DNA of 64,000 nt from Halopiger goleimassiliensis. GTDB taxonomy: Archaea > Halobacteriota > Halobacteria > Halobacteriales > Natrialbaceae. The notes below the pieces were generated by a model. The model worked only from the letters and a program-made list of their open reading frames with translations. It ran no database searches and was not told where the DNA came from. Every line of letters begins with the position of its first letter. Positions within the stretch are counted from its first letter, which is position 1. The translations under genes and the position numbers were made by a program. Below are positions 2,608-21,093 of the stretch, in pieces. The stretch covers positions 318,696-382,695 of the forward strand of contig NZ_HG315691.1 of NCBI RefSeq assembly GCF_000455345.1, given 5' to 3'.

Positions 2608-5448
2608 TTACTCCTGCTGGCGCAGGGCGAGCATCGCGGCGGCGATCAGCGCGAAGACGGCGACCGCGAACCCGAAGCCGGGCACGCCGTCGTCGTCATC
2701 GTCATCGTCGTCTTCGTCCTCGTCACCGGGGTCTTCGCCGGGATCTTCACCGGGGTCCTCACCGGGGTCTTCGCCGGGGTCCTCACCGGGGTCCTCACCT
2801 TCCTCTTCGACGGTGAGTTCGCCGGATTCGGCCTTGTCGATTTCAGCCGACTCGTTCTTGGCAGTGACGCCCCACTCGTAGGTGCCGGCCTCGTCGGTGT
2901 CGAGGTCGTACTCGAAGGTCTCGACTTCCTCACCCTCGAGGGCGAACGACTGCGAGGCGAGTTCCTCGCCGCCGTAGGTCGCCGTGAACTCGAACTCGGG
3001 CGAGGTCTGATCGCCGACGTTCTCGACGTCGACCGAGAGCGTGGCGTCTTCACCGACCTCGACGCTGTCAGGTGCGGTCGCGTCGAGCGAGATTTCGTAC
3101 GGCTCGGGCTGGTCAGCCGCGTAGAGCTGGCCTTCGGTCTCGTCGCTGAGACCGAAGTGGGCCTCTTCAGCGGTCAGCGTCACGTTGAGACCAGCGGACT
3201 CTTCGCTGAAGTCGAAGGTGCCCGCGAAGGTGCCGTCTTCCTCGACGACTGCGTCGGCGTTGTCGAAGAAGTGACGGTCGGCCTCGGCGTAGACCGTCAG
3301 TTCGGTGCCGGGTGCGACGTTGGTCTCACCGACGACCTCTTCGGAACTCGAGTTCGCGAGGTTCGCGTTCTCGTCCTCGTCGAGCTCGAGTTCGGCTTCG
3401 ACGGCTTCGAACGTCGTCGAGGCGTTCTCGTCGTAGTCCGTGTCAACGATCGGGTGGTTCTGGTCGAGGGTGACGTTGAGGTAGTACTCCTCGTCTTCCT
3501 CGAGGAAGTCGTCCAGGTCGTCGTTGTTCAGCGCGAAGACCGCCTGGTCTTCCGTCTGGTTAGCGACGATCACGTCGACGTCGAAGTCGTCATCGCTCGA
3601 CCAGACCGTGGGCTCGAGGTTCGGGCCGGGGTTGACCTCTTCGATCGTCACGCTGAGGTTGTTGCCAGTGAGGTCGGTCTCGGAGTCACCCTCCTCGATC
3701 AGCGCGTGGATGTGCGGGCCTTCGAGGTTGGCGATGAGGTGGTCCATCGCGTTGTCCTCGAGCAGCGCAACCTCGTCCTCGTCGGTCACGACGGTCTCGT
3801 TGTTGTGGTAGTCGTCGCTGTTGGCGAGATCGTCGTTTCCGGGCGCGATCTGGGTGCTGAGCTGATCGTCGTCGAGTTCGTCACGTTCCTGCAGGTTGTA
3901 CTGCGCGCTGTCCTGTCGGTTCGTGAGGCTCGCGTTCTTCTCGTCGGACTCGTTATCGATACCGGTGCCGACGTTCAGCGTGTAACTGCCCGGCTCGAGC
4001 GGGGCGTTTTCGATAGAGGCAACTTCGAAGGTCTCGTGGAGTTCGTCGTCGTCGTCTGCGAGCGTGTACGCACCGTCGCCCGAGGCCGTCGTGTCGTGGA
4101 CGATCGTGACGTTACCGCTGTCGTCATCGTCCTCGACCTCGAGGATCGTCTGGTAGTTCTCTTCGTCCTCGTCACCGACCTGGACGTAGACCGAACCGTC
4201 GTAGTCTTCGATGTCCACGACGATTTCGGCCTCGTTACCGAGGTGTTCGTTGACGTTGTCCTCGAACTCGATGTCCTCGTCGGGTGCCTCGTTGACTTCG
4301 ATCTCGTCGGTCGAGTCCGTCACGTGGGATTCGAGGTGTTCGACTTCGACCCAGTAGGAGCCCTGGTCTTCGTCGTCGACGTCCCAGGCGAAGCTGGCGT
4401 TACCTTCGTTGTCCAGTTCGGTCGACTTCGTGTCAAGCTCCGCCTCGTCGTCGAGGTCCTCGTCCTCGTAGACGATGGCCTCGACCTCGCTACCGGAGAG
4501 GTCCTCGGTGGTCACGTCGACCTCGAGGTCCTGGTTCGCGGTGATGTTGTTGTCGACCGCGTCGGCGTCGAGGTCCAGGGCCTTGAGTTCGATGACGAAG
4601 TAGTTCCCGTTCTCGAACTCGATGACGTACTCCTCGCCGCCCTCGAGTTCGGAGGTGTCGTAGTTGGCCGCAACACCGGGCGTCGTACCGACGCTGTCGA
4701 CGTTGCTACCAGTTTCGTAGTCGTCGTCCTCGTCGAGTTCGTGGATTTCGATGACGCTCCGTTCTTCCTCGTCTTCGAGCGTCACGTACTCGCCGTTCCA
4801 GATTTCGACGGTGTTGTTGACGGCCTCATTGATCGAACTATATGCGTCCTCGTAGGTGATGACGGTATCCTCGACGTTCAGCGCCTCGAAGGAACCGCTG
4901 ACGGAGACGCCGTCGTGGTCAGCCTCGTGGCTGAAGGTCTCTCGACCGTCGTCGGCCTCCCAGCTGGAGCCATCCTTGACAGTGAAGTCGAGGACGACCT
5001 CACCGTCTTCGATGTCTTCTTCAGGATTTTCGGTGTCGTTAGTGATCTCAACCGTCAACTCACCCTCCTCGAGGTCACTGTCGACGACCTCGGCTGTGAG
5101 GCCATCAGGGGAGCCCGTTACCTCATTGAAGTCCAGATCGTCGAAGCCGATGAGGTCGTCGAAGTCCTCGTCGAGGGTAACGGTGATCTCCTCGTCCGAG
5201 ACGTTCTGCTCGATCGTCTCGAACTCGAGGGTGATTTCGTGGTCCTGTGCGTCGACATCGTCTATCGCTTGGAGTTCGTCACTATCTGCGATCGTCTGTC
5301 CGTCCGTCACGTCGAGGTCGTCGAGAGTGGCCTCCTGGGCCACTGCACTGCCCGCGAACGCCGCGGACATCGTGAAGACGGAGACGACCATAATCGCTGC
5401 CAGGAACACTGCGCGTCCCTTTTCGCGATACGAAGTGTCGTCGTTCAT
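2608..5448 (-). CDS. S-layer-type surface glycoprotein paralog 1 (SLG1), PGF-CTERM
   Basis: This 946-residue exported protein belongs to the halobacterial major cell-surface glycoprotein family, which forms or decorates the S-layer. I chose the ATG at 5448 because it places MNDDTSYREKGRAVFLAA, the haloarchaeal surface-glycoprotein signal, at the N-terminus; cleavage is likely after Ala37. The N-terminal domain (about 38-200) closely resembles that of SLG5. The core (about 300-830) carries many N-X-S/T sequons and blocks common to all paralogs, such as GNVTIVHDT and IEEVNPGPN. The tail has six GEDP repeats, a poly-Asp run and VPGFGFAVAVFALIAAAML, a PGF-CTERM signal for archaeosortase processing. 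The Thr-rich stalk usual in this family is absent. It has its own promoter-leader (5550-5597) and terminator. Confidence 0.93.
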   Translation of the reverse strand: MNDDTSYREKGRAVFLAAIMVVSVFTMSAAFAGSAVAQEATLDDLDVTDGQTIADSDELQAIDDVDAQDHEITLEFETIEQNVSDEEITVTLDEDFDDLIGFDDLDFNEVTGSPDGLTAEVVDSDLEEGELTVEITNDTENPEEDIEDGEVVLDFTVKDGSSWEADDGRETFSHEADHDGVSVSGSFEALNVEDTVITYEDAYSSINEAVNNTVEIWNGEYVTLEDEEERSVIEIHELDEDDDYETGSNVDSVGTTPGVAANYDTSELEGGEEYVIEFENGNYFVIELKALDLDADAVDNNITANQDLEVDVTTEDLSGSEVEAIVYEDEDLDDEAELDTKSTELDNEGNASFAWDVDDEDQGSYWVEVEHLESHVTDSTDEIEVNEAPDEDIEFEDNVNEHLGNEAEIVVDIEDYDGSVYVQVGDEDEENYQTILEVEDDDDSGNVTIVHDTTASGDGAYTLADDDDELHETFEVASIENAPLEPGSYTLNVGTGIDNESDEKNASLTNRQDSAQYNLQERDELDDDQLSTQIAPGNDDLANSDDYHNNETVVTDEDEVALLEDNAMDHLIANLEGPHIHALIEEGDSETDLTGNNLSVTIEEVNPGPNLEPTVWSSDDDFDVDVIVANQTEDQAVFALNNDDLDDFLEEDEEYYLNVTLDQNHPIVDTDYDENASTTFEAVEAELELDEDENANLANSSSEEVVGETNVAPGTELTVYAEADRHFFDNADAVVEEDGTFAGTFDFSEESAGLNVTLTAEEAHFGLSDETEGQLYAADQPEPYEISLDATAPDSVEVGEDATLSVDVENVGDQTSPEFEFTATYGGEELASQSFALEGEEVETFEYDLDTDEAGTYEWGVTAKNESAEIDKAESGELTVEEEGEDPGEDPGEDPGEDPGEDPGEDPGDEDEDDDDDDDDGVPGFGFAVAVFALIAAAMLALRQQE
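2719..2810 (-). repeat. 12-bp tandem repeat coding (Gly-Glu-Asp-Pro)n
   Basis: Six near-identical 12-bp units (GGTGAGGACCCC type on the minus strand) encode the GEDP stalk of SLG1. Copy-number change would stay in frame and only alter stalk length. Confidence 0.85.
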
Positions 5449-5549
5449 TGGTGTGTCGTATTGGGTTGTTAGGGGGATCGGTTGGCGCACGATGCTGGAG
5501 GCGACCGTCGGCACGTTCGCAACGGATCGTCGAGTGCCGACCTGGCCAC

Positions 5550-5597
5550 CCGGATAGGGGTATCCGAAGAGTCGTCAACGTCCAGGCATAAGTCTTG
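5550..5597 (-). promoter_or_regulatory. SLG1 promoter and conserved leader motif
   Basis: On the minus strand the TATA-like element AAGACTTATGCC (about 5587-5598) is followed after ~32 nt by TACCCCTATCCGG (5550-5562). That motif is centred about 108 nt before the SLG1 ATG. The flanks GGATA/TATCC can pair as a short hairpin. The spacing implies a transcript start at or next to the motif and a ~105-115 nt leader. The same pairing of elements precedes all five SLG genes. Confidence 0.7.
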
Positions 5598-5598
5598 T

Positions 5599-5926: not shown

Positions 5927-6580
5927 TCAACGATCGGCCGGGTCCGCTCGAGCGTCACGTTTCTCGATCGCCGGTTCGCCGTCGACCGTGATCGCCTCGC
6001 AATCGAACGGCCCCGCGGCGTAGAAGTACTCGAGGACGTACCGCGGGTCGCCGCCGACCGCCTCGTGATCGCGGAGGTCGCCGGCGAGAATGCGCTCGTC
6101 GAAGGTCTCGTAGAGCGTGTCGACCGAAATTTCGGAGCCGATCCGTGCCGCCAATCCGCTATAGGTCGAGTACCGTCGGCTGGGGAACCCCTCGAAGTGT
6201 TCGCGGTCGATCACCCACTCGAGACCGTCACGCCGGCGTTCGTAGACGACGTGCTGGTATTTCCGGAGTTCGCGCTCGCCCAGAAAGTGGAGGATCCAGT
6301 CGTAGACGCTCCGCGGGAGCGACGACTGGAGGACGTCGGGGTTCGAGAAATCGATCGCCTCGAGTTGCTCGCGGTTCTCCTCGACGAACCGTCTGGCGGC
6401 CGCCCGCTCGTCGCCCTCGAGATAGTAGACGTCGTCGAACCGGCCCCGTGACTCCGTGGCGGCGTTCCCCGAGTGGGTGACGCGCAGTACGCGCACCTCG
6501 GCACGCTCGAGGGGGGCCAGCTGCGAGCGGTTGACGTTGGTCCGGGGCCGCTCCCGGAGTCGTTCGTACAGGGTCGTCAT
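5927..6580 (-). CDS. Companion gene A, ~217-residue uncharacterised haloarchaeal protein
   Basis: The product is a soluble 217-residue protein with no signal peptide or membrane segment. It is a clear paralog of the gene at 14051-14683: both contain GDERAAARRFVE, VYDWILHFLGER, VYERRRDGLEWVIDRE and a C-terminal GPFDCEAI.VDGE block. I do not recognise a named fold or catalytic motif. It lies between SLG2 and SLG1 with the same orientation. A TATA-like stretch at 6659-6668 on the minus strand suggests its own promoter with a ~55-nt leader. Repeated pairing with SLG genes hints at a role connected with surface-protein production, but nothing in the sequence shows it. Confidence 0.85.
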   Translation of the reverse strand: MTTLYERLRERPRTNVNRSQLAPLERAEVRVLRVTHSGNAATESRGRFDDVYYLEGDERAAARRFVEENREQLEAIDFSNPDVLQSSLPRSVYDWILHFLGERELRKYQHVVYERRRDGLEWVIDREHFEGFPSRRYSTYSGLAARIGSEISVDTLYETFDERILAGDLRDHEAVGGDPRYVLEYFYAAGPFDCEAITVDGEPAIEKRDARADPADR

Positions 6581-7030: not shown

Positions 7031-9850
7031 TTACTCCTGCTGGCGCAGGGCGAGCATCGCGGCGGCGATCAGCGCGAAGAGTGCGACCGCGAACCCGAAG
7101 CCGGGCACGCCGTCTTCTTCGTCGTCGTCATCCTCGTCTTCGTCCGAGGGTTCCTCATCCGAGGGTTCCTCGTCCGAGGGATCCTCGTCCGAGGGTTCCT
7201 CGTCCGAAGGCTCTTCCTCTTCGACGGTCAGCGTGCCGGACTCCGAGGCGTCGACGTCCTCGCCGTCGGCGGTCACGGACCAGTCGAAGGAGCCAGCCGC
7301 GCTGGTGTCGAGCTCGTACTCGAAGCTCTCAGACTCGCCGCCCTCGAGGTCGAACGACTGCGAGGCGAGTTCATCGCCGTCGTAGGTCGCCGTGAACTCG
7401 AATTCGGGCGAGGTCTGCTCGCCGACGTTCTCGACGTCGACCGAGAGCGTGGCGTCTTCACCGACCTCGACGCTGTCGGGTGCGGTCGCGTCGAGCGAGA
7501 TGCTGTGCGGTTCGGGCTGATCGGCCGCGTACAGCACCGCGTCACCTTCAGCGCTCACGCCGAAGTTGTTCTGGGATTCCTCGACGGAAAGCTCCACGTC
7601 GATGTCGGCAGGCTCTTCGCTGAAGTCGAACGTGCCCACGAAGGAGCCGTCTTCGGCGACGGTCGTCTCGTTGTCGTCGAAGAAGTAGCCGTCGGATTCG
7701 GCGAAGATCGTCAGCTCGCTACCGGGAGCGATGTTCGTCTCGCCGACGACGTCCTCGGCGCTCGAGTTCGCGAGGTTCGCGTTCTCGTCCTCGTCGAGCT
7801 CGAGTTCAGCTTCCTCGGTCTCGAACGTCGTCGAAGCGTTCTCTGCGTAGTCCGTGATGTGGTTGTCGAGGGTGACGTTGAGGTAGTACTCCTCGCCTTC
7901 CTCGAGTTCGTCTGCCAGGTCGTCGTTGTCCAGTGCGAAGACCGCCTGGCCTTCCGTCTGGTTGGCGACGAGCGTATCGACAGAGATCTTAGTACCGCCG
8001 TTCTCGTGACCATCGTCAGTCGCCCAGACGGACGGTTGCACGTTCGGACCGGGGTTGACCTCTTCGATGGTCAGGTTGAAACCGTTGGTCTCGAGCGCAT
8101 CCTCGTCGTCACCCTCGTCGAGCAGGGCGTAGATGTGCGGGTTGTCCAGCTGGACGACCAGGTTGTCCATCGCCTGCTCTTCGAGGAAGGCGACGGTGTC
8201 GTCGGCGGTCACCTTGGTGTCCTCGAGGTCGCTGCTCGAGCTGAGGGAATCAGCAACGGGCGCGACGTGCGTGCTGATCTGGTCGTCAGCGAGCTCCTCG
8301 CGGTCCTGCAGGTTGTACTGCGCGCTGTCCTGTCGGTCGTCGATGGCGGTGCTGTTACCGGTGAGACCGACGTTCAGCGTGTAGCTGCCCGCCTCGAGCG
8401 GCGGGTTGGTGACGCCGGGCGTGTTGAGGACTTCGAGCTCGTCGTCGCCAACGACCGAGTAGGCGTTCTTGTCAGCGGCCGTCGTGTCGTGGACGATCGT
8501 GACGTTGCCGCTGTCGTCCTCGTCCGTCACTTCGAGGAAGGCCGCGTAGTTCTCTTCGTCCTGGTCACCGACCTGGACGACGACGGAGCCGTCGTGATCC
8601 TCGATCTCGACGACGATCGAAGCGTTGTTACCGATGTTCTCCCGGACGTTGTCGCGGAATTCAACTTCCGTGTCAGGAGCCTCGTTGACTTCGATCTCGT
8701 CGGTCGAGGCAGTCACGTCGGACGGTTCGTGCTCGACTTCGACCCAGTAGGAGCCCTCGTTGCCTTCGGAGAGGTCCCAGGTGAAGCTAGCGTCACCGTT
8801 CGCGTCGAGTTCCTCGGTCTGGGTGTCGAAGTCGTCGGCCTCATCGTCGAGGTCCGAGTCCGTGTAGACGGTCCCGTAGACAGTGCTACCGGTGAGGTCC
8901 TCGGACGTGACGTCGACGTCGATGTCGTTGTTGGTCGTGACGTTGGTGTCGGCAGCTTCCGCGCCGAGGCTGAGCTCCTCGAGCTCGATCGCGACGTAGG
9001 TGTCGTCAGTGTCGCCTTCGAGCTCGATGATGTACTCTTCACCGCCCTCGAGGTTGGACGTGTCGTAGTTCGTCGCGACACCCGGCGTCGTACCGGTTCG
9101 GTCGACGCGGTCGCCGAGGCGGTAGTTGTTACTGTCGTCCTCGTCTGCCTCGTAGATGTTGACGGTGTCCTCGACTCGCTCGGTGTACGTCGTTACGTAG
9201 ACACCTTCCCAGACGGTGTCCTCGTCGTACGTGTTGCCAGCGGTAATGTCACTGGGAGTAGTAGCAGCCCAATCACTGGTGGTGTCGCTGCTATCGAAGA
9301 CGATATCCTGCTCGCTCAGCGCGTTGAAGGAGACCGACTCACCGTTAGTAGTGTACTGAACCGTTTCAGGACCCAGGTCGACTTCGAAGTCACCATCGAT
9401 GTTGTAGGTGACCTGAATGGTGATGGTCTCTCCTTCCGAAGCGCCATCGGTGTGCTCCCCAGCAATGCCGGAGATTACCAGTTCTTCATCAGATGCCTGA
9501 AGACTTGCACCCGTGGCGGAAATACCAGTCGATGATGTGTCGACGGTAACAGAGACGTTATCACCATCAATATCGGTGACGTCGTCAAGGTCGGAGATGT
9601 CGATCGCGATCTCCTCACTGTCAATGTTTTGACCGATATGGAACTCTACTTCAATGTCTTGCGTCTGACTATCCGCTTCGACGACCGTCCGCTCCCCAGC
9701 CGTAATGGAAGCGTCCGTAACGTCGAAGGTGTCTTCCTGCGCGGCCACCGCGCCCGTGAAGGCGGCGGACATGGCCACGACGGAGACGATCATAATCGCT
9801 GCCAGGAACACTGCGCGTCCCTTTTCACGATATGATGTGTTGTCGTTCAT
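7031..9850 (-). CDS. S-layer-type surface glycoprotein paralog 2 (SLG2), PGF-CTERM
   Basis: The product is a 939-residue exported surface glycoprotein. Its N-terminal signal is nearly identical to that of SLG3 (MNDNTSYREKGRAVFLAAIM), with likely cleavage around Ala37. The first ~200 mature residues differ strongly from SLG1. From about residue 230 the conserved core resumes, with blocks such as GTTPGVATNYDTS, NNASIVVEIEDHDGS and VVGETNIAPGSELT. The stalk is a DEEPS/DEDPS repeat followed by VPGFGFAVALFALIAAAML and the identical end LALRQQE. The N-glycosylation sequons are numerous and a Thr-rich stalk is absent. It is monocistronic by its own promoter (9952-9998) and terminator. Confidence 0.93.
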   Translation of the reverse strand: MNDNTSYREKGRAVFLAAIMIVSVVAMSAAFTGAVAAQEDTFDVTDASITAGERTVVEADSQTQDIEVEFHIGQNIDSEEIAIDISDLDDVTDIDGDNVSVTVDTSSTGISATGASLQASDEELVISGIAGEHTDGASEGETITIQVTYNIDGDFEVDLGPETVQYTTNGESVSFNALSEQDIVFDSSDTTSDWAATTPSDITAGNTYDEDTVWEGVYVTTYTERVEDTVNIYEADEDDSNNYRLGDRVDRTGTTPGVATNYDTSNLEGGEEYIIELEGDTDDTYVAIELEELSLGAEAADTNVTTNNDIDVDVTSEDLTGSTVYGTVYTDSDLDDEADDFDTQTEELDANGDASFTWDLSEGNEGSYWVEVEHEPSDVTASTDEIEVNEAPDTEVEFRDNVRENIGNNASIVVEIEDHDGSVVVQVGDQDEENYAAFLEVTDEDDSGNVTIVHDTTAADKNAYSVVGDDELEVLNTPGVTNPPLEAGSYTLNVGLTGNSTAIDDRQDSAQYNLQDREELADDQISTHVAPVADSLSSSSDLEDTKVTADDTVAFLEEQAMDNLVVQLDNPHIYALLDEGDDEDALETNGFNLTIEEVNPGPNVQPSVWATDDGHENGGTKISVDTLVANQTEGQAVFALDNDDLADELEEGEEYYLNVTLDNHITDYAENASTTFETEEAELELDEDENANLANSSAEDVVGETNIAPGSELTIFAESDGYFFDDNETTVAEDGSFVGTFDFSEEPADIDVELSVEESQNNFGVSAEGDAVLYAADQPEPHSISLDATAPDSVEVGEDATLSVDVENVGEQTSPEFEFTATYDGDELASQSFDLEGGESESFEYELDTSAAGSFDWSVTADGEDVDASESGTLTVEEEEPSDEEPSDEDPSDEEPSDEEPSDEDEDDDDEEDGVPGFGFAVALFALIAAAMLALRQQE
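7141..7215 (-). repeat. 15-bp tandem repeat coding (Ser-Asp-Glu-Glu/Asp-Pro)n
   Basis: Five tandem 15-bp units with the core TCCGAGGGTTCCTCG (plus-strand reading) encode the acidic stalk of SLG2. Units differ by single bases only. Confidence 0.8.
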
Positions 9851-9951: not shown

Positions 9952-9998
9952 CCGGGTAGGGGTGTTCGGACGTTCTTTCACGACCTGGTATAAGTCTT
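9952..9998 (-). promoter_or_regulatory. SLG2 promoter and conserved leader motif
   Basis: Minus-strand AAGACTTATACC (about 9987-9998) precedes ACCCCTACCCGG (9952-9963) by ~33 nt. The motif centre is ~108 nt before the SLG2 ATG. CACCC/GGGTG arms around the motif can form a small stem. The TATA region is nearly the same as that of SLG1. Confidence 0.7.
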
Positions 9999-10368: not shown

Positions 10369-13300
10369 TTACTCCTGCTGGCGCAGGGCGAGCATCGCGG
10401 CGGCGATCAGCGCGAAGATGGCGACCGCGAACCCGAAGCCGGGCACGCCGTCTTCTTCCTCACTGTCATCGTCGTCGGAGTCATCTTCGGGCGCGTCGTC
10501 GTCCGCGGGCTCGTCGTCGTCAGCAGGTTCGTCGTCGTCAGCCGGCTCTTCCTCTTCGACGGTCAGCGTGCCGGACTCCGAGGCGTCGACGTCCTCGCCG
10601 TCGGCGGTCACCGACCACTCGTAGGAACCAGCCGCGCTGGTGTCGAGGTCGTACGACGCCGTGAAGTCGTCACCGGCCTCGAGCTGCTTGGTGTCTTCCT
10701 CGAGCGTCTCGCCGTCGACGGTCACCGTGTAGGTGAACTCGGGCGAGTCCTGCTCGCCGAGGTTCTCGACGCTCACGTCGAGCGTGGCGTCGTCGTCGAC
10801 GGTGACGCTGTTCGGTGCGGTCGCGTCGATCGCGACGTTGTGCGGTTCGGGCTGGTCGGCCGCGTACAGCACCGCATCAGCCTCGTCGTTGAGACTGAAG
10901 TGGAAGTCGTCAGCCTGGAGGCTCACGTTGAGTCCAGCCTCGTACTCGCTGAAGTTGAACGTCCCCGCGAAGGTGCCGTCCTCGGCGACGACGGCGTCGG
11001 CGTCGTCGTAGAAGTGACCGGCCGATTCGGCGGTGACGGTCAGTTCGCTGCCGGGTGCGACGTTCGTCTCGCCGACGACGTCCTCGGCGCTCGAGTTCGC
11101 GAGGTTCGCGTTCTCGTCCTCGTCGAGCTCGAGTTCGGCCGTCTCGGTGGTGAACGTCGTCGAGGCGTTCTCGGAGTAGTCCGCGGTAACGATCGGGCTA
11201 GTCTGGTCGAGGGAGACGTTGAGGTAGTACTCCTCGCCTTCCGAGAGTTCGTTGGCCAGCTCCTCGTTGTCGAAGGCGAAGATCGCCTGGCCTTCCGTCT
11301 GGTTGGCGACGAGCACGTCGACGGAAATCTTGGAACCGTCGTTCTCGTGGCTATCGTCGGTCGCCCAGACGTCGGGTTCCGCGTTCGGACCGGGGTTGAC
11401 CTCTTCGATGGTCACGTTGAAGTCCCCGAGGGAGTCCTGGTCGTCACCAGCGTCGAGCAGCGCGTAGATGTGCGGGTTGTCGAGCTGGACGAGCAGGTGA
11501 TCCATTGCGCTCTCGTCCTCGAGAAGCGCGACGGAGTCGTCGGCGGTCACGACGGTGTTCTCGAGGTCGTCGCTGGACGCGACGGTGTCGTCACCGGGCG
11601 CGACGTGCGTGCTGAGCTGGTCGTCAGCGAGCTCCTCGCGGTCCTGCAGGTTGTACTGCGCGCTGTCCTGTCGGTCGTCGATGGCGGTGCTGTTGCCGTT
11701 GAGACCGACGTTCAGCGTGTAGCTGCCCGCCTCGAGTGCGTCGTGATCGATGGAGGCAGATTCGAGGGTGTCGTGGAGTTCGTCGTCGCTGTTAGCCAGC
11801 GTGTACGCTCCATCGCCCGACGTCGACGTGTCGTGGATGATCGTGACGTTGCCGTCCTCGCTCGTGTCCTCGACCTCGAGGATCGTCTGGTAGTTGTCCT
11901 CCTCGGAGTCACCGACCTGGACGAAGACCGAGCCGTCGTAGTCCTCGATGTCGACGACGATCGAGGCGTTGTTACCGATGTTCTCCTGGACGTTGCTGCG
12001 GAACTCGACGTTCGGGTCAGGTGCTTCACTGACTTCGATCGTCTCGGTGGTGGCGGTTACTTCGGATTCGTCGTGTTCGACTTCGACGGTGTACTCGCCC
12101 GCACCGAGGTCGTCGTGGGCAGCATCGAAGGCGAAGGTCGCGTCACCGTTCGCGTCGAGTTCGGTCGTAGCAGTGACACCGGTCGACTCGTCGTCACTGT
12201 CGAGGACCGTCGCCTGGACTTCGGTCCCGGTGAGGTCCTCGGACGTGACGTTGACTTCGATGTCGTTGTTGGTCGTGATGTTCGTATCGACAGCCGTCGC
12301 ATCGAGGTCGAGCGGCGCTACGTCGAGTAGCACGTACCACTCGTTGCTGTCGCCGTCGAATTCGACGAGGTACTCCTCGCCGCCCTCGAGGTCGGCGGTG
12401 TCGATGTTGGTCGCCTTGCCCGGCGTCGTACCGGAGCTTTCGGCGCTACTACCGAGCGTGATGTCGTCATTATCGGTTTCGAACTCGTTGATAGTGACGA
12501 TGTCACCTTCGCCGTCAGCCTCGAAGGTGACGGTCTCGCCCTGGTAAATTTCGACCGTGTTCGTGTCGTCGTAGTTGGAGTAGGTGTCCCAGTCAGTTCC
12601 GGAGTCGGCAGCGATACCGTTGCCGGCAACGACCTGGGAGGTACCGACGTTGAGCGCGCGGTAGCGCGTGTCGTCCTGGTTGCCGTCAGGATCCTGTGCA
12701 CTGTGGTAGATGTACTCGTCACCGCCGTCAGCGTCGAGGTCGGTGCCGTCGAGGGTCAGAGTAACGGGGATCTCGTACGTGTCACCGGCAGTGATACCGT
12801 TGTCACTGATGTCGAGTTGCAGGTTCGCGTCATCGGCAACGACCGCATCACTGTTGTCAGTGATAGACAGGTCGGCAACACTACCGACGGTTACGTCAGT
12901 GATGTCGATATCAGCGTCGAACGTCTCGCTAAGGTCGACGGTCACCGTCTCGTCGGAAATACCTTCGCTAGCCCAGACACTCACCGTGACGCCCTGATCA
13001 GGGGTCGGACCGACAGTGCTGACGGTTTCGTCAGTGATCGTGTTAGAACCATCATCGACGGAGATGGTTTCTAGCGAGAACTGGTTTGCCTCGACGAGGT
13101 CGAAGGAAGCAGTGTCTGCACCCTCACCAGATCCCGCAGCGATAGCGTAGTCGAGGTTGTCTGTTGTTGCGACATCCTCGGTGTTGAGGTCAAGCGTCAC
13201 GGTGATAGTAGCATCACCAGACGAACCGTCAGCACCAGATGCATCAGATGCTGTAAACGAGACCTCACCATTGGTGCTGTCGTAACTGTCACCACTGATG

Positions 13301-13608
13301 GACACTTCATTAGTGTCACTTGAGCTGACACCAGTTAGAGAAACGCCGACATCCTCATTGAGGATCTCGTTTACATCGACGACAATTTCGTCAGATGCTT
13401 CATTTGCGACTGATACGTCGAACGTTACTTCTTGCGTAGTTGAACTCTCATCAACGAGAACGTTATCTGCACCGGCGTTCTCGATAGTGTCTACAGTTGC
13501 CGCCGCAGCGCCCGCGAACGCCGCGGACATTGCGACGACTGAGACGATCATAATCGCTGCCAGGAACACCGCGCGTCCCTTTTCACGATATGATGTGTTG
13601 TCGTTCAT
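10369..13608 (-). CDS. S-layer-type surface glycoprotein paralog 3 (SLG3), extended N-terminus, PGF-CTERM
   Basis: This is the longest paralog, 1,079 residues from the ATG at 13608. Upstream in-frame codons were rejected because the start MNDNTSYREKGRAVFLAA matches SLG2. Two related beta-rich N-terminal modules follow the signal (about 38-190 and 190-350); both contain an acidic 'DE.V.VDL/V' strand pattern, which suggests an internal domain duplication. The conserved core begins near residue 370. The stalk is made of ADDDEP units, followed by VPGFGFAVAIFALIAAAML and LALRQQE. Codon and base composition of the first module is lower in GC than the core, suggesting that the N-terminal part has diversified or been exchanged. 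Own promoter (13715-13755) and terminator. Confidence 0.92.
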   Translation of the reverse strand: MNDNTSYREKGRAVFLAAIMIVSVVAMSAAFAGAAAATVDTIENAGADNVLVDESSTTQEVTFDVSVANEASDEIVVDVNEILNEDVGVSLTGVSSSDTNEVSISGDSYDSTNGEVSFTASDASGADGSSGDATITVTLDLNTEDVATTDNLDYAIAAGSGEGADTASFDLVEANQFSLETISVDDGSNTITDETVSTVGPTPDQGVTVSVWASEGISDETVTVDLSETFDADIDITDVTVGSVADLSITDNSDAVVADDANLQLDISDNGITAGDTYEIPVTLTLDGTDLDADGGDEYIYHSAQDPDGNQDDTRYRALNVGTSQVVAGNGIAADSGTDWDTYSNYDDTNTVEIYQGETVTFEADGEGDIVTINEFETDNDDITLGSSAESSGTTPGKATNIDTADLEGGEEYLVEFDGDSNEWYVLLDVAPLDLDATAVDTNITTNNDIEVNVTSEDLTGTEVQATVLDSDDESTGVTATTELDANGDATFAFDAAHDDLGAGEYTVEVEHDESEVTATTETIEVSEAPDPNVEFRSNVQENIGNNASIVVDIEDYDGSVFVQVGDSEEDNYQTILEVEDTSEDGNVTIIHDTSTSGDGAYTLANSDDELHDTLESASIDHDALEAGSYTLNVGLNGNSTAIDDRQDSAQYNLQDREELADDQLSTHVAPGDDTVASSDDLENTVVTADDSVALLEDESAMDHLLVQLDNPHIYALLDAGDDQDSLGDFNVTIEEVNPGPNAEPDVWATDDSHENDGSKISVDVLVANQTEGQAIFAFDNEELANELSEGEEYYLNVSLDQTSPIVTADYSENASTTFTTETAELELDEDENANLANSSAEDVVGETNVAPGSELTVTAESAGHFYDDADAVVAEDGTFAGTFNFSEYEAGLNVSLQADDFHFSLNDEADAVLYAADQPEPHNVAIDATAPNSVTVDDDATLDVSVENLGEQDSPEFTYTVTVDGETLEEDTKQLEAGDDFTASYDLDTSAAGSYEWSVTADGEDVDASESGTLTVEEEEPADDDEPADDDEPADDDAPEDDSDDDDSEEEDGVPGFGFAVAIFALIAAAMLALRQQE

Positions 13609-13714: not shown

Positions 13715-13755
13715 CCGGGTAGGGGTATCCGGGAGACTCTCTCGATATTATATAT
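13715..13755 (-). promoter_or_regulatory. SLG3 promoter and conserved leader motif
   Basis: Minus-strand ATATATAATAT (13745-13755) lies ~31 nt before TACCCCTACCCGG (13715-13727), whose centre is ~113 nt before the ATG at 13608. The TATA sequence differs from the other paralogs while the leader motif is unchanged. Confidence 0.7.
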
Positions 13756-14050: not shown

Positions 14051-14683
14051 TCACTCCTCGAGTTTCGCGACACCAGCCTCGCCGTCTACGGAGATCGCCT
14101 CGCAGTCGAACGGCCCGGCCGCACAGAAGTACTCGAGCACGTACCGGTAGGTCCCCCAGACCGACGCGTGCTCGCGGAGGTCGCACTCGAGAATCCGATC
14201 GTCGAACGCCTCGTAGACGGCGTCAAGCGAGACGTCGGGTTCGACGCGAGCCGCGACCCCCTCCCGCGTCGTGTACCGTCGCGTGGGCGCGCGCTCGTAC
14301 CGCTCGCGGTCGATCACCCACTCGAGGCCGTCCCGGCGGCGTTCGTAGACGACCCGTCGGTACCGCCGCAGTCGGCGCTCCCCCAGGAAGTGAAGAATCC
14401 AGTCGTAGACCTCGCGGGGGACCGCCTCCTGGACCGGGTTCCGCCGGGAGAAGTCGATGCGTTCCAACAGGTCCCGGTTCGCCTCGACGAACCGCCTGGC
14501 GGCCGCGCGCTCGTCCCCTGCGAGATACGCGACCGACGTGAACTCGCCCGGCCCGGGGTTGGTCTGGCCGCTCGAGCGTCGTACCCGGAGGACCCGCACG
14601 AGGTGGCGCTCCTCGTAGCCCAGTTCGCTGCGCTGGACGTCGACCTGCGGCCGGTCGCGGAGGCGTTCGTGAAGCTCCGACAC
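14051..14683 (-). CDS. Companion gene B, ~210-residue paralog of companion gene A
   Basis: Uncharacterised soluble protein of 210 residues, co-linear with companion gene A over its full length; shared blocks include GDERAAARRFVE, VYDWILHFLGER, VYERRRDGLEWVIDRE and GPFDCEAI. I chose the GTG at 14683, giving V/M-SELHERLRDRP like the MTTLYERLRERP start of gene A. A TATA element at 14709-14715 sits 26-32 nt before it, which fits a leaderless transcript. It lies 103 bp downstream of SLG4. The hairpin and T-tract in that gap make a separate transcript more likely than an operon. No fold recognised. Confidence 0.83.
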   Translation of the reverse strand: MSELHERLRDRPQVDVQRSELGYEERHLVRVLRVRRSSGQTNPGPGEFTSVAYLAGDERAAARRFVEANRDLLERIDFSRRNPVQEAVPREVYDWILHFLGERRLRRYRRVVYERRRDGLEWVIDRERYERAPTRRYTTREGVAARVEPDVSLDAVYEAFDDRILECDLREHASVWGTYRYVLEYFCAAGPFDCEAISVDGEAGVAKLEE

Positions 14684-14786: not shown

Positions 14787-17700
14787 TCAGGGCTCCGTCC
14801 GCAGTGCCACGAGTGCCGCACCGAGCAACGCGGCGAGAGCGACGACGACGCCGAAGCCAGGCATCCCGTCGTCGGCGTCGTCGCCGGCGTCGGCGCTATC
14901 GTCAGTATCGTCGGCCGCGTTGACACCCTCTTCACCGGCGGCCAACTCCGCCTCGCTGAACGAGACCACGTCGTTCGTCTCCCGGTCGCCGGCGGTCGCC
15001 GACCACGCGACGTCACGGGGCTCGTCGGCGGTGATCTCGTGACTGGCCGACCACGTGTCGTCCGGGGCGAGCGCGAGCGTCTCGTTCTCGAGGACCGCAC
15101 CGTCGACCTCGACGCCGACGGGAACCGATTCGGCCGTCACGTTGCCGGCGTTGGTGACGGCCACCGAGAGGGTGACGGTCTCGTCGACGGCGGCCTCGTC
15201 GGGGGCGTCGGCGTCGAGTTGCAGCAACGGCGCTTCCGCTTCGGCGAGTTCGGCCTCGAGGTCGTCCTCGATATCGTAGTACGACTGCGACGCTTCGAGG
15301 AGAACCGGCGTCCCTTCCTCGAACTCGCTGAAGTCGAACGTCGTCGCGACCGTCCCGTCGGACTCGACCGGCTGATCGTCGTCGAGCCAGAAGAGACCGT
15401 CCGGCGAGTCCGCCAGGAGCGTGACCTCGGCACCGGGTGCGACGTTCGTCCGTGCGGTGACGGTGGCGTCCTCGGCGTTGGGCAAGCGTTCGTTTCCGTC
15501 CTCGAGTTCGAGTTCGGGCGCGACGAGTTCGAACGTCCCGGTGGCAGTCTCCTCGTCGTCCTCGTCGGCGACGAACGTGTTGGCCTCGGTCAGCGTAACG
15601 TTGAGGGCGTACGGCTCGCCCAGTTCGAGCGCACCCGTGTCGATCGTGAAGTCGACCCGTTCGGCCTCGCGATCGGCCTCGAGCACCTGGACGTCGTCCC
15701 CGGTGAGGTCGCCGTCGGCGATCGACCACCGCTCGGGATCGACGTTCGGGCCGGGATCGACCTCCTCGATCGAGACGTCGACGCCGCGCCGGTCGAGCGC
15801 GTCCGCGTCGTCGCCGTCCTCGATGAACGCGAAGACGTCGGACGCCGCGAGCGACCCGAGCGCGTGATCGGCCTCGACGATCGTCTCGGTCGCCGTGACG
15901 GTCGTCGCGTTCAGGTCCGTCGCGTCGGCGAGGGCGTCCTGGCCGGGTGCCGTCGCGACGGTCAGGGACTCCTCGATTCCGGACCGCTCCTGGAGCGTCA
16001 GACGCGCGGCGTCCTGTTCGACGGCGGCGTCCCAGCCGTCGGCCTCGAGCCCGACGATCAGGTGATACTGGCCCGCCTCGAGCGGCGCGTCGATCCCCAG
16101 GGGGTTCACGTCCTGGACCGTCAGGTCGTCCTCGTCGTCGGCGACGGAGAACGCGTCGGCGTCGACGCTCGTCGTGTCGTAGACGATCGTCACGTTGCCG
16201 TCCTCGTTCCCGTCCTCGACCTCGAGCAGCGCCTGGTAGTTCGACGCCTCCTCGTCGCCGACCTGAACGTAGACCGGCTCGTTCCAGTCCTCGATGTCGA
16301 CAGTGATCGAGGCGGTGTTCCCGAGCGACTCCACGACGTTGTCCCGGAAGGCGACGTCTTCGTCGGGTGCCTCGTCCACGGTGCTCTCGCCGGCCATCGT
16401 CGTCACGCCCGACGGTTCGTGTTCGATCTCGACCCAGTAGCTACCGGCTCCCTCGAGGTCGTCCTGGGGGTCGATGACGAACTGCGCCTCTCCCTCGGCG
16501 TCGAGTTCGGCCGCGTCGTCGAAGACGACCTCCTCGTGGTCCGCGTCGGCGTACACCGTGGCGGTGACCTCGCTCCCGGTGAGATCGGCGCTCGAGACGT
16601 CGATCTCGAGGTCCTCGTTCGCGGTGAGGTGGGTCGTCACCGGCGTCGCCTGCAGATCGAGGGGTTGCAGGTCGACGATCACGTACTCGTCACCCGGGAA
16701 CTCGACGGCGTAGGCCTGGCCGCCCTCGAAGTCGAACTCGGTGTTCGCCGCGAAGCCGGGCGTCGTACCGAGGCCGTCGACTTCCTCGCCGAGCGTGGGA
16801 TCCGTGACGTCCTCGAGTTCGTAGATCGTGACGACGTCGGTCGCCCCGGCGGCTTCGACGGTTACGGACTGGCCCGCCCAGATATCCTCGCGAATGGGAG
16901 CCGTGCTGAGACTGCCGGCCTCCGCGTGGGAGAGCAGTGCGTCCTGCACGTTCACGACCTCGAAGGAGGCGTCGATCATGTCCTCGTCCGCCACGACGTG
17001 CTCGAGGGCCTGGTCGCCGTCGTCGGCCTCGAGGTCCTCGCCGTCGATCTGGAGGTCGACCGCGAACGAGGCGTCGCCGGTGCTCTGGGCGTCGACGTCG
17101 ATCTCGAGCTGGCCGTCGGACAGCGAGATGTCGCCCGATCCGATGGGAGCGAGGTTCTGCTCGTCGCTGGCACCGACGACGGTCACACCGTCGAATCCGT
17201 CGGCCAGCACGTCCTCGAGTTCCGACGCGAGCGCGATCGTCACGGTCTCGTCGGCGTTCGCGTGGACGTCGAGGCTGACGTCGAGGGTCTGGCTCTGTGC
17301 GCCGGCGTCCGTGACGGCGTCGACGGCCGCAGCGTCGAAGATCGTCTGGCCGTCGGTCACCTCGAGATCGGTGACCGTAACGCCGACGAGCCCGAACGAA
17401 CTCGTCTCGGCGGTGGTGTCGCCCTGCTGGACCGTGTAGGTCAGATCGGCCGCGGGCGAAGTAGCCGTCGTATCGATACCGGTGATCGCGACGTCGAACG
17501 AACCGGCGGTGAGATCGTTCCCGTCGGCGTCGACGGTGATCTCGCTCGCATCGCGATCGAGCGATACGTCACCGTCGTCGAGACCGGTCGATCCGCCGGC
17601 TTCGACGCCGGCCGCTGCGCCGGAGAGGTCGACCTCGTCGGCCAGGGCACTCACGTCGATGACGACGTCCGTGTCGTCGTCGACGGCTATTCCTTCGATC

Positions 17701-17876
17701 GTTTGATCGGCGTCGTCGACGCCCGTGGGTACGGAACTCGGCGTACCCGCGTCGGCGACCGTCGCCGCTGCTGGGGCCGCGAACACCGCAGCCAGCGCGA
17801 CGACCGAAAAGAGCAGCATCGCGGCCAGGAACGGCGCTCGTTCCTGCTCGCGATCTGATGGTCGGTTACGTATCAT
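14787..17876 (-). CDS. S-layer-type surface glycoprotein paralog 4 (SLG4), divergent, PGF-CTERM
   Basis: The product is 1,029 residues from the ATG at 17876, which starts MIRNRPSDREQERAPFLAAM, a variant of the surface-glycoprotein signal. It is the most divergent of the five and the most GC-rich. As in SLG3, an additional beta-rich module precedes the domain beginning VTDLEVTDGQTIFD, which matches the N-terminal domain of SLG1 and SLG5. The core has the same order of motifs (GTTPGFAAN, NTASITVDIEDWNEP, GNVTIVYDTTS, IEEVDPGPN). There is no acidic tandem-repeat stalk; an Ala/Asp-rich linker leads into GMPGFGVVVALAALLGAAL, a PGF-CTERM signal with a different membrane segment and end. Probably an older paralog that has escaped homogenisation with the others. 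Confidence 0.92.
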   Translation of the reverse strand: MIRNRPSDREQERAPFLAAMLLFSVVALAAVFAAPAAATVADAGTPSSVPTGVDDADQTIEGIAVDDDTDVVIDVSALADEVDLSGAAAGVEAGGSTGLDDGDVSLDRDASEITVDADGNDLTAGSFDVAITGIDTTATSPAADLTYTVQQGDTTAETSSFGLVGVTVTDLEVTDGQTIFDAAAVDAVTDAGAQSQTLDVSLDVHANADETVTIALASELEDVLADGFDGVTVVGASDEQNLAPIGSGDISLSDGQLEIDVDAQSTGDASFAVDLQIDGEDLEADDGDQALEHVVADEDMIDASFEVVNVQDALLSHAEAGSLSTAPIREDIWAGQSVTVEAAGATDVVTIYELEDVTDPTLGEEVDGLGTTPGFAANTEFDFEGGQAYAVEFPGDEYVIVDLQPLDLQATPVTTHLTANEDLEIDVSSADLTGSEVTATVYADADHEEVVFDDAAELDAEGEAQFVIDPQDDLEGAGSYWVEIEHEPSGVTTMAGESTVDEAPDEDVAFRDNVVESLGNTASITVDIEDWNEPVYVQVGDEEASNYQALLEVEDGNEDGNVTIVYDTTSVDADAFSVADDEDDLTVQDVNPLGIDAPLEAGQYHLIVGLEADGWDAAVEQDAARLTLQERSGIEESLTVATAPGQDALADATDLNATTVTATETIVEADHALGSLAASDVFAFIEDGDDADALDRRGVDVSIEEVDPGPNVDPERWSIADGDLTGDDVQVLEADREAERVDFTIDTGALELGEPYALNVTLTEANTFVADEDDEETATGTFELVAPELELEDGNERLPNAEDATVTARTNVAPGAEVTLLADSPDGLFWLDDDQPVESDGTVATTFDFSEFEEGTPVLLEASQSYYDIEDDLEAELAEAEAPLLQLDADAPDEAAVDETVTLSVAVTNAGNVTAESVPVGVEVDGAVLENETLALAPDDTWSASHEITADEPRDVAWSATAGDRETNDVVSFSEAELAAGEEGVNAADDTDDSADAGDDADDGMPGFGVVVALAALLGAALVALRTEP

Positions 17877-17972
17877 AGTATCTGTGTGGTTGTCTCGAGC
17901 GGATAGCGTGATCCTCCGGGGGAGATCGACGCCCCGGACCGCATCTGGAGCCGGGCCGCCGTGGAGTCGCGT

Positions 17973-18020
17973 CTCGAGTAGGTGTAACTGGGCGTTTAGA
18001 GATGTGTGTAATAAACTTTC
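17973..18020 (-). promoter_or_regulatory. SLG4 promoter and degenerate leader motif
   Basis: Minus-strand GAAAGTTTATTACACA (about 18004-18019) resembles the SLG5 TATA region almost exactly. About 32 nt later comes TACACCTACTCGA (17974-17986), a 10/13 match to the leader motif, centred ~104 nt before the ATG. Confidence 0.55.
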
Positions 18021-18229
18021 TGCTGACGGTTCACGCCGCTGTATTGTTTTCGCTCGGTACCAGTCACTGTATTGATCGGACTGTCGTGCTGCCGGCCGGA
18101 GGTCGGACGGCTGTACCAGCCGGTATCCATCGGTCGATGACGGCTCAGGAGTACGGCTCGCGTTACGACGGGTACAACAGCGGTCGTGCCGTCGAGAGGT
18201 GAGAGACAGCCGTCGCTCGCGGGCGTAGT
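18021..18229. other. Spacer upstream of SLG4
   Basis: About 210 bp between the SLG4 promoter and the SLG5 terminator; nothing recognised in it. Confidence 0.4.
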
Positions 18230-18271
18230 ACCGAAAAAATGGAATCGATCCGAGGACCGGCGTGAGCCGGT
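18230..18271 (-). terminator. Terminator of SLG5
   Basis: Minus-strand stem ACCGGC-TCAC-GCCGGT (18256-18271) is followed by CCATTTTTTCGG (18230-18241). Confidence 0.65.
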
Positions 18272-18285
18272 GGTTCAACGAGTGC

Positions 18286-21093
18286 TTACTCCTGCTGGCG
18301 CAGGGCGAGCATCGCGGCGGCGATCAGCGCGAAGATGGCGACCGCGAACCCGAAGCCGGGCACGCCGTCCTCGTCGTCACCGTCGTCGTCAGGCTCTTCG
18401 CTGGGTTCTTCGCTGGGCTCTTCGCTGGGTTCCTCACCGGGTTCCTCACTGCCGGACTCCGGTTCTTCGACGGTCAGCGTGCCGGACTCCGAGGCGTCGA
18501 CGTCCTCGCCGTCGGCGGTCACCGACCACTCGTAGGAGCCAGCCGCGCTGGTGTCGAGGTCGTACGACGCCGTGAAGTCGTCACCGGCCTCGAGCTGCTT
18601 GGTGTCTTCTTCGAGCGTCTCGCCGTCGAAGACGACGTCGAAGTCGAACTCGTCCGAGGCGGTTTCGCCGGCGTTCTCGAGCGTCACGTCGAGGGTGGCG
18701 TCGTCACCTTCCTCGACTGCGTCCGGCACGGTGACGTCGAGCACGACGTTCGCCGGCTCGGCCTCGTCCGCCGAGTAGAGGACGGCGTCGCCGTCGTCCT
18801 CGAGGTCGAAGTGAGCGTCCTCAGCCGTGAGGCTCACGTCGATGTCGGCGGGCTGCTCGCTGAAGTCGAACGTGGCCGCGAAGGTGCCGTCGTCGCCGAC
18901 GGTGGTCTCGTTGTCGTCGAAGAAGTAGCCGTCGGACTGGGCGAAGACCTGGATCGCGCTACCGGGCGCGACGTTGGTCTCGCCGACGACGTCCTCGGCG
19001 CTCGCGTTCGCGAGGTTCGCGTTCGCCTCGTCGTCGAGTTCGAGTTCAGCTTCCTCGGTCTCGAACGTGACCGAAGCGACTTCTTCGTCCGCGTCCTCGT
19101 CGTCAGGGGTCAGGTCGCTGCTCTTCTCGAGCGTGACGTTGAGGTAGTACTCCGCGTCCTCGTCGAGGATGCTAGCGAGATCGTCGTTGTTCAGACCGAA
19201 GACCGCCTGGCCTTCGTCCTGGTCGGCGACGAGCGTCGTGACGCCGAAGTGTTCCTCGGCGTTCCAGACGTCGGCTTCGGCGTTCGGACCGGGGTTGACC
19301 TCTTCGATCGTCACGTTGAGGTCGTTTCCGGCGAGGTCGGTCTCGTCGTCACCCTCGTCGAGGAGGGCATAGAGGTGCGGGTTGTCCAGCTGGGCGATGA
19401 GGTGGTCCATGTTGCCGTCGAGCATGGCGACGGTGTCGTCGGCGGTCACGACGGTGTTCTCGAGGTCGTCGCTGGACCCGAGGGTGTCGTCACCAGGTGC
19501 GACGTGCGTGCTCAGCTGGTCGTCTGCGAGTTCGGTTCGCTCCTGCAGGTTGTACTGGGCGCTGTCCTGTCGCTCGTCGATGGCGCTGCTGTTACCGTCG
19601 AGGCCGACGTTCAGCGTGTAGCTGCCCGCCTCGAGCGGCGGGTTGGTGACGCCGGGCTCGTTGCGGACCGTGAGCTCGTCGTCGCCAACGACCGAGTAGG
19701 CGTTCTTGTCAGCGGCCGTCGTGTCGTGGACGATCGTGACGTTGCCGCTATCGTCTGCGTCCTCGACCTCGAGGATGGCCTGGTAGTTCTCTTCGTCCTG
19801 GTCACCGACCTGGACGAAGACCGAGCCGTCGTAGTCCTCGATGTCGACGACGATCGAGGCGTTGTTACCGATGTGTTCGTTGACGTTGTCGCGGAATTCG
19901 ACGTCCGAGTCGGGCGCTTCGTCGACGGAGACGGTGTCCGTCTCGACGGTTACGCCGGACTCGATGTGCTCGACTTCCACGTGGTAGTCGCCTTCGTCAC
20001 CCTCGTCGAGGGCGAAGTTGAACTCGGCTGCACCGCTGCTGTCGAGTTCGGTCTCGTCGCTGGCGAACTCATCGTCGTCGGAGTCGTACACCGTCGCGAC
20101 GACTTCGCTACCGGTCAGGTCGTCACTGGTGACGTTGACTTCGATGTCCTGGTTGGTCGTGATCTCGTCGTCGACGAGGTCAGCGCCGAGGCCGAGTTCG
20201 TTCAGTTCGACGATGACGTGCTGCTCGTCGGTACCGTCGCTGATCTCGAAGACGTACTCTTCCCCACCTTGGAGGGCAGAGGTGTCGTAGTTGACGGCAA
20301 CGCCGGGCGTCGTACCGACGCTGTCGACCTCGTCGCCGAGTTTGACGCCGCTGTCGTACTCGTCGTACTCGTAGACGGTGATGACGTCTCGTTCTTCATT
20401 GCTCTCGAGGGTCACCTGCTGACCCTCCCAGACGTCGCCATCATATTCGTGGTCACTTTCCGAGGACGGGCTGTCCGCCACGTCAGCGTACGAGATGACG
20501 GTATCTTCGACGTTCAGCGCTTCGAAGGAGCCGGTAACGACTTCATCGCCGTGCTCGGCGGAGTGGCTGAAGGTCTCGTGACCGTCGTCAGCCTCCCAGT
20601 CGGAGCTAGCGTTGACAGTCAGCTGGAGGGTAACCCACGTATCGGTTGCCTCGCTGGTGTCGTCGTTCGTGATTTCGAGCGTGAGCTCCCCGTCACTGGG
20701 GTCGTTATCCGTAGCAGTTGCGGTGAGGGAGACTCCGTCAGTATCCTCGACTACACCGGAATAGCCCACGTTCTCGAATCCGATGAGGTCATCGAGATCC
20801 TCATCGAGAGTGACGGTAACCGCTTCATCGGTCGCATCCGCAGCGATAGAGTCGAATTCGAGGGTCACTTCGTGAGTCTGTGCGTCTACGTCGGTGACTC
20901 CGTCGATGTCGTCGACGGAGTCGAAGATCGTCTGTCCGTCCGAGACGTCGAGGTCGGAGAGTTCGACCTGGTGTTCGTCTGCGGCGGCCGCACCCGCGAA
21001 GGCTGCGGACATCGCGACGACGGACATAACCATGATCGCGGCCAGGAACACTGCGCGTCCCTTTTCGCGAATGGAGGTTTGGGTTCGTGTCAT
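18286..21093 (-). CDS. S-layer-type surface glycoprotein paralog 5 (SLG5), PGF-CTERM
   Basis: The product is 935 residues from the ATG at 21093, beginning MTRTQTSIREKGRAVFLAA; cleavage is likely after the Ala run near residue 38. The N-terminal domain (DLDVSDGQTIFD, TVTLDEDLDDLIGFE, SWEADDG.ETFSH, GSFEALNVEDTVI) is closely related to that of SLG1, although the two genes lie at opposite ends of the array. The core matches the others (NNASIVVDIEDYDGS, GNVTIVHDTTAADKNAY as in SLG2). The stalk is EEPS repeats, then VPGFGFAVAIFALIAAAML and LALRQQE. Several blocks are shared preferentially with SLG2 or SLG3, indicating mosaic exchange between paralogs. Confidence 0.93.
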   Translation of the reverse strand: MTRTQTSIREKGRAVFLAAIMVMSVVAMSAAFAGAAAADEHQVELSDLDVSDGQTIFDSVDDIDGVTDVDAQTHEVTLEFDSIAADATDEAVTVTLDEDLDDLIGFENVGYSGVVEDTDGVSLTATATDNDPSDGELTLEITNDDTSEATDTWVTLQLTVNASSDWEADDGHETFSHSAEHGDEVVTGSFEALNVEDTVISYADVADSPSSESDHEYDGDVWEGQQVTLESNEERDVITVYEYDEYDSGVKLGDEVDSVGTTPGVAVNYDTSALQGGEEYVFEISDGTDEQHVIVELNELGLGADLVDDEITTNQDIEVNVTSDDLTGSEVVATVYDSDDDEFASDETELDSSGAAEFNFALDEGDEGDYHVEVEHIESGVTVETDTVSVDEAPDSDVEFRDNVNEHIGNNASIVVDIEDYDGSVFVQVGDQDEENYQAILEVEDADDSGNVTIVHDTTAADKNAYSVVGDDELTVRNEPGVTNPPLEAGSYTLNVGLDGNSSAIDERQDSAQYNLQERTELADDQLSTHVAPGDDTLGSSDDLENTVVTADDTVAMLDGNMDHLIAQLDNPHLYALLDEGDDETDLAGNDLNVTIEEVNPGPNAEADVWNAEEHFGVTTLVADQDEGQAVFGLNNDDLASILDEDAEYYLNVTLEKSSDLTPDDEDADEEVASVTFETEEAELELDDEANANLANASAEDVVGETNVAPGSAIQVFAQSDGYFFDDNETTVGDDGTFAATFDFSEQPADIDVSLTAEDAHFDLEDDGDAVLYSADEAEPANVVLDVTVPDAVEEGDDATLDVTLENAGETASDEFDFDVVFDGETLEEDTKQLEAGDDFTASYDLDTSAAGSYEWSVTADGEDVDASESGTLTVEEPESGSEEPGEEPSEEPSEEPSEEPDDDGDDEDGVPGFGFAVAIFALIAAAMLALRQQE
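18398..18455 (-). repeat. 12-bp tandem repeat coding (Glu-Glu-Pro-Ser)n
   Basis: Four to five 12-bp units of the GAAGAACCCAGC type (minus strand) encode the SLG5 stalk. Confidence 0.8.

Follow-up and report, generated by a model that had tools for sequence, protein, structure and literature searches.

The S-layer is the wall of haloarchaea and also a receptor for their viruses. In Haloferax volcanii it is built from HVO_2072, a glycoprotein that combines a signal peptide, a string of Ig-like domains, a BGTF domain, an acidic spacer and a PGF-CTERM tail for ArtA. A different arrangement is found in the sap-type switch of Campylobacter, where one promoter serves a set of promoterless, invertible cassettes. 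Halorubrum lacusprofundi has two S-layer genes, Hlac_2976 and Hlac_0412, that are 41% identical (PMC10544981); one S-layer protein of this species is a viral receptor, escape mutants alter the receptor protein, and possession of two genes has been proposed to be an advantage against viruses that use one of the products as receptor (PMC10544981). The S-layer genes of Haloferax recombine between strains (PMC5867893), and those in genomic island 1 of Haloquadratum recombine as well, with no gene duplications found in the islands (PMC4535781).

The window analyzed here, a stretch of 64,000 nucleotides from Halopiger goleimassiliensis, contains between positions 2608 and 21093 of its minus strand five S-layer glycoprotein ORFs, none of which is interrupted. 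The intact reading frames and the NCBIfam domains bear out the proposal of an earlier note on this DNA that these are five same-strand S-layer paralogs. The genes and their neighbors are as follows.

2608 to 5448, minus strand: SLG1, S-layer glycoprotein of 946 aa with signal peptide, BGTF domain, CARDB and PGF-CTERM; 16 N-glycosylation sequons
5927 to 6580, minus strand: small S-layer-linked ORF 1, 217 aa, with no Pfam or NCBIfam family
7031 to 9850, minus strand: SLG2, S-layer glycoprotein of 939 aa with DUF7827, BGTF, CARDB and PGF-CTERM; 12 sequons
10369 to 13608, minus strand: SLG3, S-layer glycoprotein of 1079 aa with an extended N-terminal region; 13 sequons
14051 to 14674, minus strand: small S-layer-linked ORF 2, 207 aa, 62% identical to ORF 1 at the amino acid level
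14787 to 17876, minus strand: SLG4, divergent S-layer glycoprotein of 1029 aa on a long branch, with degenerate signal peptide and leader; 5 sequons
18286 to 21093, minus strand: SLG5, S-layer glycoprotein of 935 aa with a predicted string of Ig-like beta domains (about residues 270 to 880) and a C-terminal TM helix
21500 to 22099, minus strand: TetR-family regulator, part of the syntenic flank of the S-layer locus, probably belonging with the divergent CARDB/MMPL pair
22368 to 26576, plus strand: CARDB-domain protein and MMPL-family transporter, a flank of the S-layer locus that is syntenic across the family

The SLG proteins resemble HVO_2072 (NF041335; 7ptp/7ptr) in having a signal peptide, an Ig-like string, a BGTF domain, an acidic spacer and a PGF-CTERM tail, and the locus differs in holding five genes and in the acidic D/E/P/G repeats of the spacers. 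They are relatives of the Haloferax csg equivalog NF041335 rather than members of it, scoring 97 to 159 bits against a cut-off of 1100. Among NCBIfam models, PGF_CTERM matches all five proteins, as the earlier note had predicted for the tail, and the BGTF surface domain NF045517 matches all five at 50 to 66 bits with a cut-off of 40. CARDB is likewise matched in all five, slightly below cut-off in SLG4, and DUF7827 in SLG2 and SLG4. The common export signal that had been proposed holds for SLG1, SLG2, SLG3 and SLG5, which exceed the cut-off of the S-layer signal peptide model TIGR04207; NCBIfam did not report TIGR04207 for SLG4, where the alignment shows a degenerate relative of the signal. 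The proposed conserved core similarly stands for GNVTIV(H/Y)DT and IEEV(N/D)PGPN, which occur in all five proteins together with TN(V/I)APG, but not for VVGETN, whose position is taken by TARTN in SLG4. Protein identity is 56 to 61% among SLG1, SLG2, SLG3 and SLG5 and about 40% between SLG4 and all others, and the number of sequons ranges from 5 in SLG4 to 16 in SLG1.

In the case of SLG5, the one paralog examined in this respect, a structure model built with 24 sequences has the string of Ig-like domains known from haloarchaeal S-layer glycoproteins, with confidently predicted beta domains between about residues 270 and 880 (block means mostly 80 to 97), a variable N-terminal part of low confidence and a helix at the C-terminus. 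A Foldseek search with this model retrieved Ig-rich proteins that include the Haloferax S-layer structure 7ptp (E 8e-15, with a low whole-chain TM-score of 0.24), and a profile search matched the C-terminal end to 7ptp.

The genome comprises 3.9 Mb in three contigs, and genome-wide searches gave four matches to TIGR04207 and five good matches to NF045517, all of them genes of the array, with a sixth NF045517 match below cut-off. Because both searches find only array genes, the array represents the whole recognizable S-layer complement of the cell. The genome also encodes one archaeosortase A homolog above cut-off, and thus combines PGF-CTERM proteins with an archaeosortase A.

We surveyed about 357 genomes, 125 from Natrialbaceae and 232 from other families, using TIGR04207, a probe that could miss arrays whose signal peptides have decayed. 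Within Natrialbaceae, TIGR04207 genes number 0 in 8 genomes, 1 in 48, 2 in 32, 3 in 24, 4 in 9 and 5 in 4. The earlier note's view that few S-layer genes are typical therefore stands to the extent that 88 of the 125 family genomes have two or fewer; arrays of two to four recur, however, and the present one is not unique in kind. Tandem run lengths were taken from genomes with at least four TIGR04207 matches whose positions were inspected, and among these the longest other run is one of four genes in G124, which has an additional S-layer copy elsewhere in its genome. Three-gene runs are present in G028, G085, G254, G238 and G174, and tandem pairs in many genomes, for example G019, G013, G072, G111 and G087. 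The five-gene array is the longest found in the survey, and since runs of two to four recur across several genera and families, it is the extreme of a trend and not a singular case. The arrays of other haloarchaea are similarly same-strand runs of S-layer paralogs, with conserved signal regions and tails and divergent middles in those compared, and they differ in having fewer copies. Like Halorubrum lacusprofundi, the organism has more than one S-layer gene per genome, though here there are five, in tandem and mosaic. No mosaic array of five S-layer genes was described in the literature searched, which lay outside subscription papers. The named relatives of the SLG proteins are nearly all from Natrialbaceae; the 60 relatives drawn included no genome of the same genus, and an initial contig scan with a five-protein profile returned no relatives.

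A tree calculated from 43 S-layer proteins unites the five SLGs in one clade (SH-aLRT 99), in which SLG4 sits on a long branch and the branching of SLG1, SLG2, SLG3 and SLG5 is not resolved; other arrays likewise group by genome or genus. Since concerted evolution can look in a tree like expansion within a single lineage, the clade does not date the duplications. The TetR/CARDB/MMPL group that adjoins SLG5 also adjoins S-layer genes in many other genomes, where such sites hold one to three S-layer genes, and from this synteny the array is judged to have grown in place at a locus shared across Natrialbaceae. The TetR protein is less likely to be a regulator of the S-layer, since it adjoins the divergent CARDB/MMPL pair and is conserved together with it. 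The family of about 210 aa to which the small ORFs belong occurs in 17 of the 125 family genomes, mostly adjoining S-layer genes and often with stops or frameshifts, and a three-sequence structure model (pLDDT 65) gave no fold match. Directly downstream of SLG1, positions 2 to 2410 of the minus strand encode a large CARDB-containing surface-type protein that has a single weak relative in the loci retrieved.

The earlier note had also held that the N-terminal domains differ, with those of SLG1 and SLG5 closest, that SLG5 shares internal blocks with SLG2 or SLG3, and that mosaic exchange had taken place. In a codon alignment the N-termini (columns 170 to 460) are 38 to 49% identical at the nucleotide level between pairs, and 63% identical between SLG1 and SLG5. 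Informative sites, defined as those that split SLG1, SLG2, SLG3 and SLG5 two versus two, are given below in the order 12|35 : 13|25 : 15|23, and three pairs of blocks stand out.

2932 to 3093, minus strand: SLG1 block nearly identical to SLG2 7340 to 7501 (columns 1050 to 1106, 94% nt identity; sites 29:0:0 for SLG1 with SLG2)
7340 to 7501, minus strand: SLG2 block common to SLG1, partner of 2932 to 3093
18460 to 18630, minus strand: SLG5 block nearly identical to SLG3 10549 to 10719 (columns 1092 to 1150, 96% nt identity; sites 28:0:0)
10549 to 10719, minus strand: SLG3 block common to SLG5, partner of 18460 to 18630
19624 to 19917, minus strand: SLG5 block common to SLG2 8387 to 8680 (columns 640 to 740, 89% nt identity; sites 1:27:5 for SLG2 with SLG5)
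8387 to 8680, minus strand: SLG2 block common to SLG5, partner of 19624 to 19917

Shared blocks exist between SLG2 and SLG3 too, and columns 740 to 985 give counts of 5:12:21. Because opposite topologies win in different segments, a single gene tree is inadequate, and simple ancient divergence with no exchange is ruled out. Exact shared runs reach 78 nt between SLG genes that are otherwise only about 70% identical. A permutation test on all polymorphic sites gave p of about 0.001 for five of the six pairs, and a pairwise silent-codon test gave p of 0.001 to 0.0025 for SLG2/SLG5, SLG1/SLG3 and SLG3/SLG5; the four-gene silent-site test was not significant, having only 116 sites, which is too few. 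The segment counts and permutation tests together uphold the proposal of mosaic exchange, and the conflicting paralog topologies identify the array, at the level of sequence, as a gene-conversion family. SLG4 is a deep outlier with little recent exchange. In the nearest relative, G019, a tandem pair (L028 9783-12361 and 13441-16006) is about 60% identical over much of the 5' half and 98 to 100% identical over some 700 nt at the 3' end, falling to 31% just beyond the genes, a profile that we read as recent gene conversion. In the three-gene arrays of G028 and G085 (L124, L125), the outer pair (copies a and c) tends to group by genome and copy b is orthologous across genomes, which hints at concerted evolution with position-dependent conversion. 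Homologous recombination makes S-layer genes mosaic here as it does in Haloferax and Haloquadratum, with the difference that the exchange there is between strains and here between paralogs of one genome.

Upstream of each gene lies a leader element placed as follows.

5550 to 5562, minus strand: SLG1 leader element TACCCCTATCCGG, predicted +1, 27 nt from the TATA-box center
9952 to 9964, minus strand: SLG2 leader element CACCCCTACCCGG, predicted +1
13715 to 13727, minus strand: SLG3 leader element TACCCCTACCCGG, predicted +1
17974 to 17986, minus strand: SLG4 degenerate leader element TACACCTACTCGA, with 3 mismatches
21198 to 21210, minus strand: SLG5 leader element TACCCCTACCCGG, predicted +1, promoter class A (AGAAAGCTTATTAC)

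Allowing up to three mismatches, TACCCCTACCCGG is found 83 to 146 nt upstream of the start codon in 54 of 55 Natrialbaceae S-layer genes, while shuffled upstream regions mostly need four to six mismatches. The leader starts 26 to 27 nt past the TATA-box center in 50 of the 54, a spacing that places it at the predicted transcription start. In other haloarchaeal families, too, TACCCCTACCC or a sequence much like it occupies this position ahead of S-layer genes. There are two promoter classes, CACAAGACTTAT in SLG1 and SLG2 and AGAAAGCTTATTAC in SLG5, and SLG3 has a variant, CATATAT, that continues with GGGTGGCC as in SLG1 and SLG2. On its own the short motif YACCCCTAYCC lacks specificity, with 11 matches in this genome against 10 for a reversed control; only those matches that follow a correctly spaced TATA box are S-layer leaders. 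RNAalifold found no secondary structure in the S-layer leaders, the alignment being gappy, and Rfam returned only sub-threshold miRNA look-alikes on the array. A leader-like TACCCCTACCCGG site at G023:C2:59177 on the minus strand (L095 1501) is not at a listed S-layer gene and may mark another gene.

We consider it probable that the array arose by lineage-specific tandem expansion, in place, of an ancestral Natrialbaceae S-layer locus, and that it is subject to gene conversion and supplies alternative or mixed lattices. Intragenic gene conversion would hold the copies similar in leader, signal peptide, membrane-proximal half and C-terminal tail as the N-terminal ends diverge, so that one anchoring and export system (ArtA) could display alternative outer domains, which the cell would use as alternative or mixed lattices; the earlier note had suggested condition-dependent or mixed S-layers. 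By analogy, selection would most likely come from viruses for which the S-layer is the receptor, and SLG4 may be turning into a separately controlled variant. That SLG1, SLG2, SLG3 and SLG5 each have their own intact TATA box and leader at the same spacing fits independent use of the genes. The array also departs from a phase-variable switch of the sap type in that a separate TATA-like box and leader, degenerate in SLG4, precede every SLG gene, and all five genes lie on one strand. The same promoters weigh against a scheme of archival antigenic variation, in which one S-layer gene is expressed and the other four, silent or expressed at a low level, supply it with segments by gene conversion; mosaic blocks among all of SLG1, SLG2, SLG3 and SLG5 and the degenerate leader and signal peptide of SLG4 would suit such a store of donor copies, but typical donor cassettes are cut short or lack a promoter, which is true of no SLG gene, and the array contains no recombinase-like ORF. 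We regard this scheme as unlikely.

Head-to-tail copies with shared promoters and conserved cores might alternatively be redundant, kept for dosage of the most abundant protein of the cell with gene conversion as a by-product, yet near-identical copies would then be expected, whereas the N-terminal ends (38 to 63% nt identity), lengths and sequon numbers (5 to 16) differ strongly, which makes this reading improbable. It is also rather doubtful that the five are different S-layer-associated components, one forming the lattice and the others being accessory glycoproteins (cap or anchor variants, for instance): the long branch and few sequons of SLG4 and the extra N-terminal region of SLG3 point that way, but length class, domain order and C-terminal anchor are common to all five, and the TIGR04207 and NF045517 searches found no lattice-forming homolog elsewhere in the genome. 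Expansion in place with gene conversion and alternative or mixed lattice use remains our preferred reading.

The unexpected part of the analysis, which we offer as a lead and hold more tentatively, concerns the leader. The only other exact TACCCCTAYCCGG site in this genome lies on the strand opposite to a conserved RNA, and this second site recurs in most genomes examined. The RNA (G000:C1:24377-24460, minus strand; L096 1456-1539) follows a TATA box and forms a predicted hairpin with apical loop GGGTAGGGGTA. A covariance model built from 18 Natrialbaceae members matched 193 of 295 genomes of the order, once each, including 63 of 63 in Natrialbaceae. On 55 distinct sequences, 94.8% of the cells of the structure are paired, compared with 38 to 50% in slid versions, and two-sided changes affect 14 pairs against 7.6 ± 1.2 in shuffles, of which 0 of 500 reach 14. 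The RNA lies upstream of, and co-directional with, a homolog of the mptE-like gene (Pfam MptE-like) in 62 of 62 loci (L189-L258), and the loop contains GGGTAGGGGTA in all 62, the model having been built from sequences chosen for that motif. It may be a leader of the mptE-like gene, a separate small RNA or both. Rfam gave no match over the gathering score at four loci, and the literature searched held no description of this RNA.

The leader sequence TACCCCTACCC is the perfect reverse complement of the hairpin loop GGGUAGGGGUA, and full 11-nt pairing with the loop is possible for 65 of 84 S-layer leaders. Among the deviations, 21 internal ones keep the pairing by wobble and 10 break it, and 12 more affect the first base only. 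Covariation between leader and loop is impossible, because the 11-nt core of the RNA is invariant. Position 12 agrees in most Natrialbaceae and in family f12 and mismatches in f4 and f5. The match of the SLG3 leader extends to about 18 of 19 nt, and SLG4 has lost most of the match. Whole-leader duplex energies were set aside, being inflated by GC content. Two independently conserved elements are unlikely to match by chance, and the complementarity suggests that a shared antisense or leader RNA may control S-layer mRNAs. That the RNA acts in trans on these mRNAs, or vice versa, and coordinates all array paralogs except SLG4 is a possibility that we rate below an even chance; SLG4 would stand outside because its complementarity has decayed. 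Instead of pairing, leader and RNA may share the motif as the binding site of one protein. Haloarchaeal vesicles contain fragments of S-layer mRNA, which rank with the transcripts most enriched there (PMC10927574), an enrichment that may or may not be linked to the complementary RNA.

The array is genuine, and a tandem S-layer family of extreme size that undergoes gene conversion explains it well, with functional use as the inferred part. It is also a natural system for asking if archaea vary their coat in the way that pathogens vary their antigens. The leader and its complementary RNA loop provide a concrete genome-wide hypothesis for the control of the most abundant surface protein; if it is true, an RNA would regulate the archaeal cell coat throughout the order.
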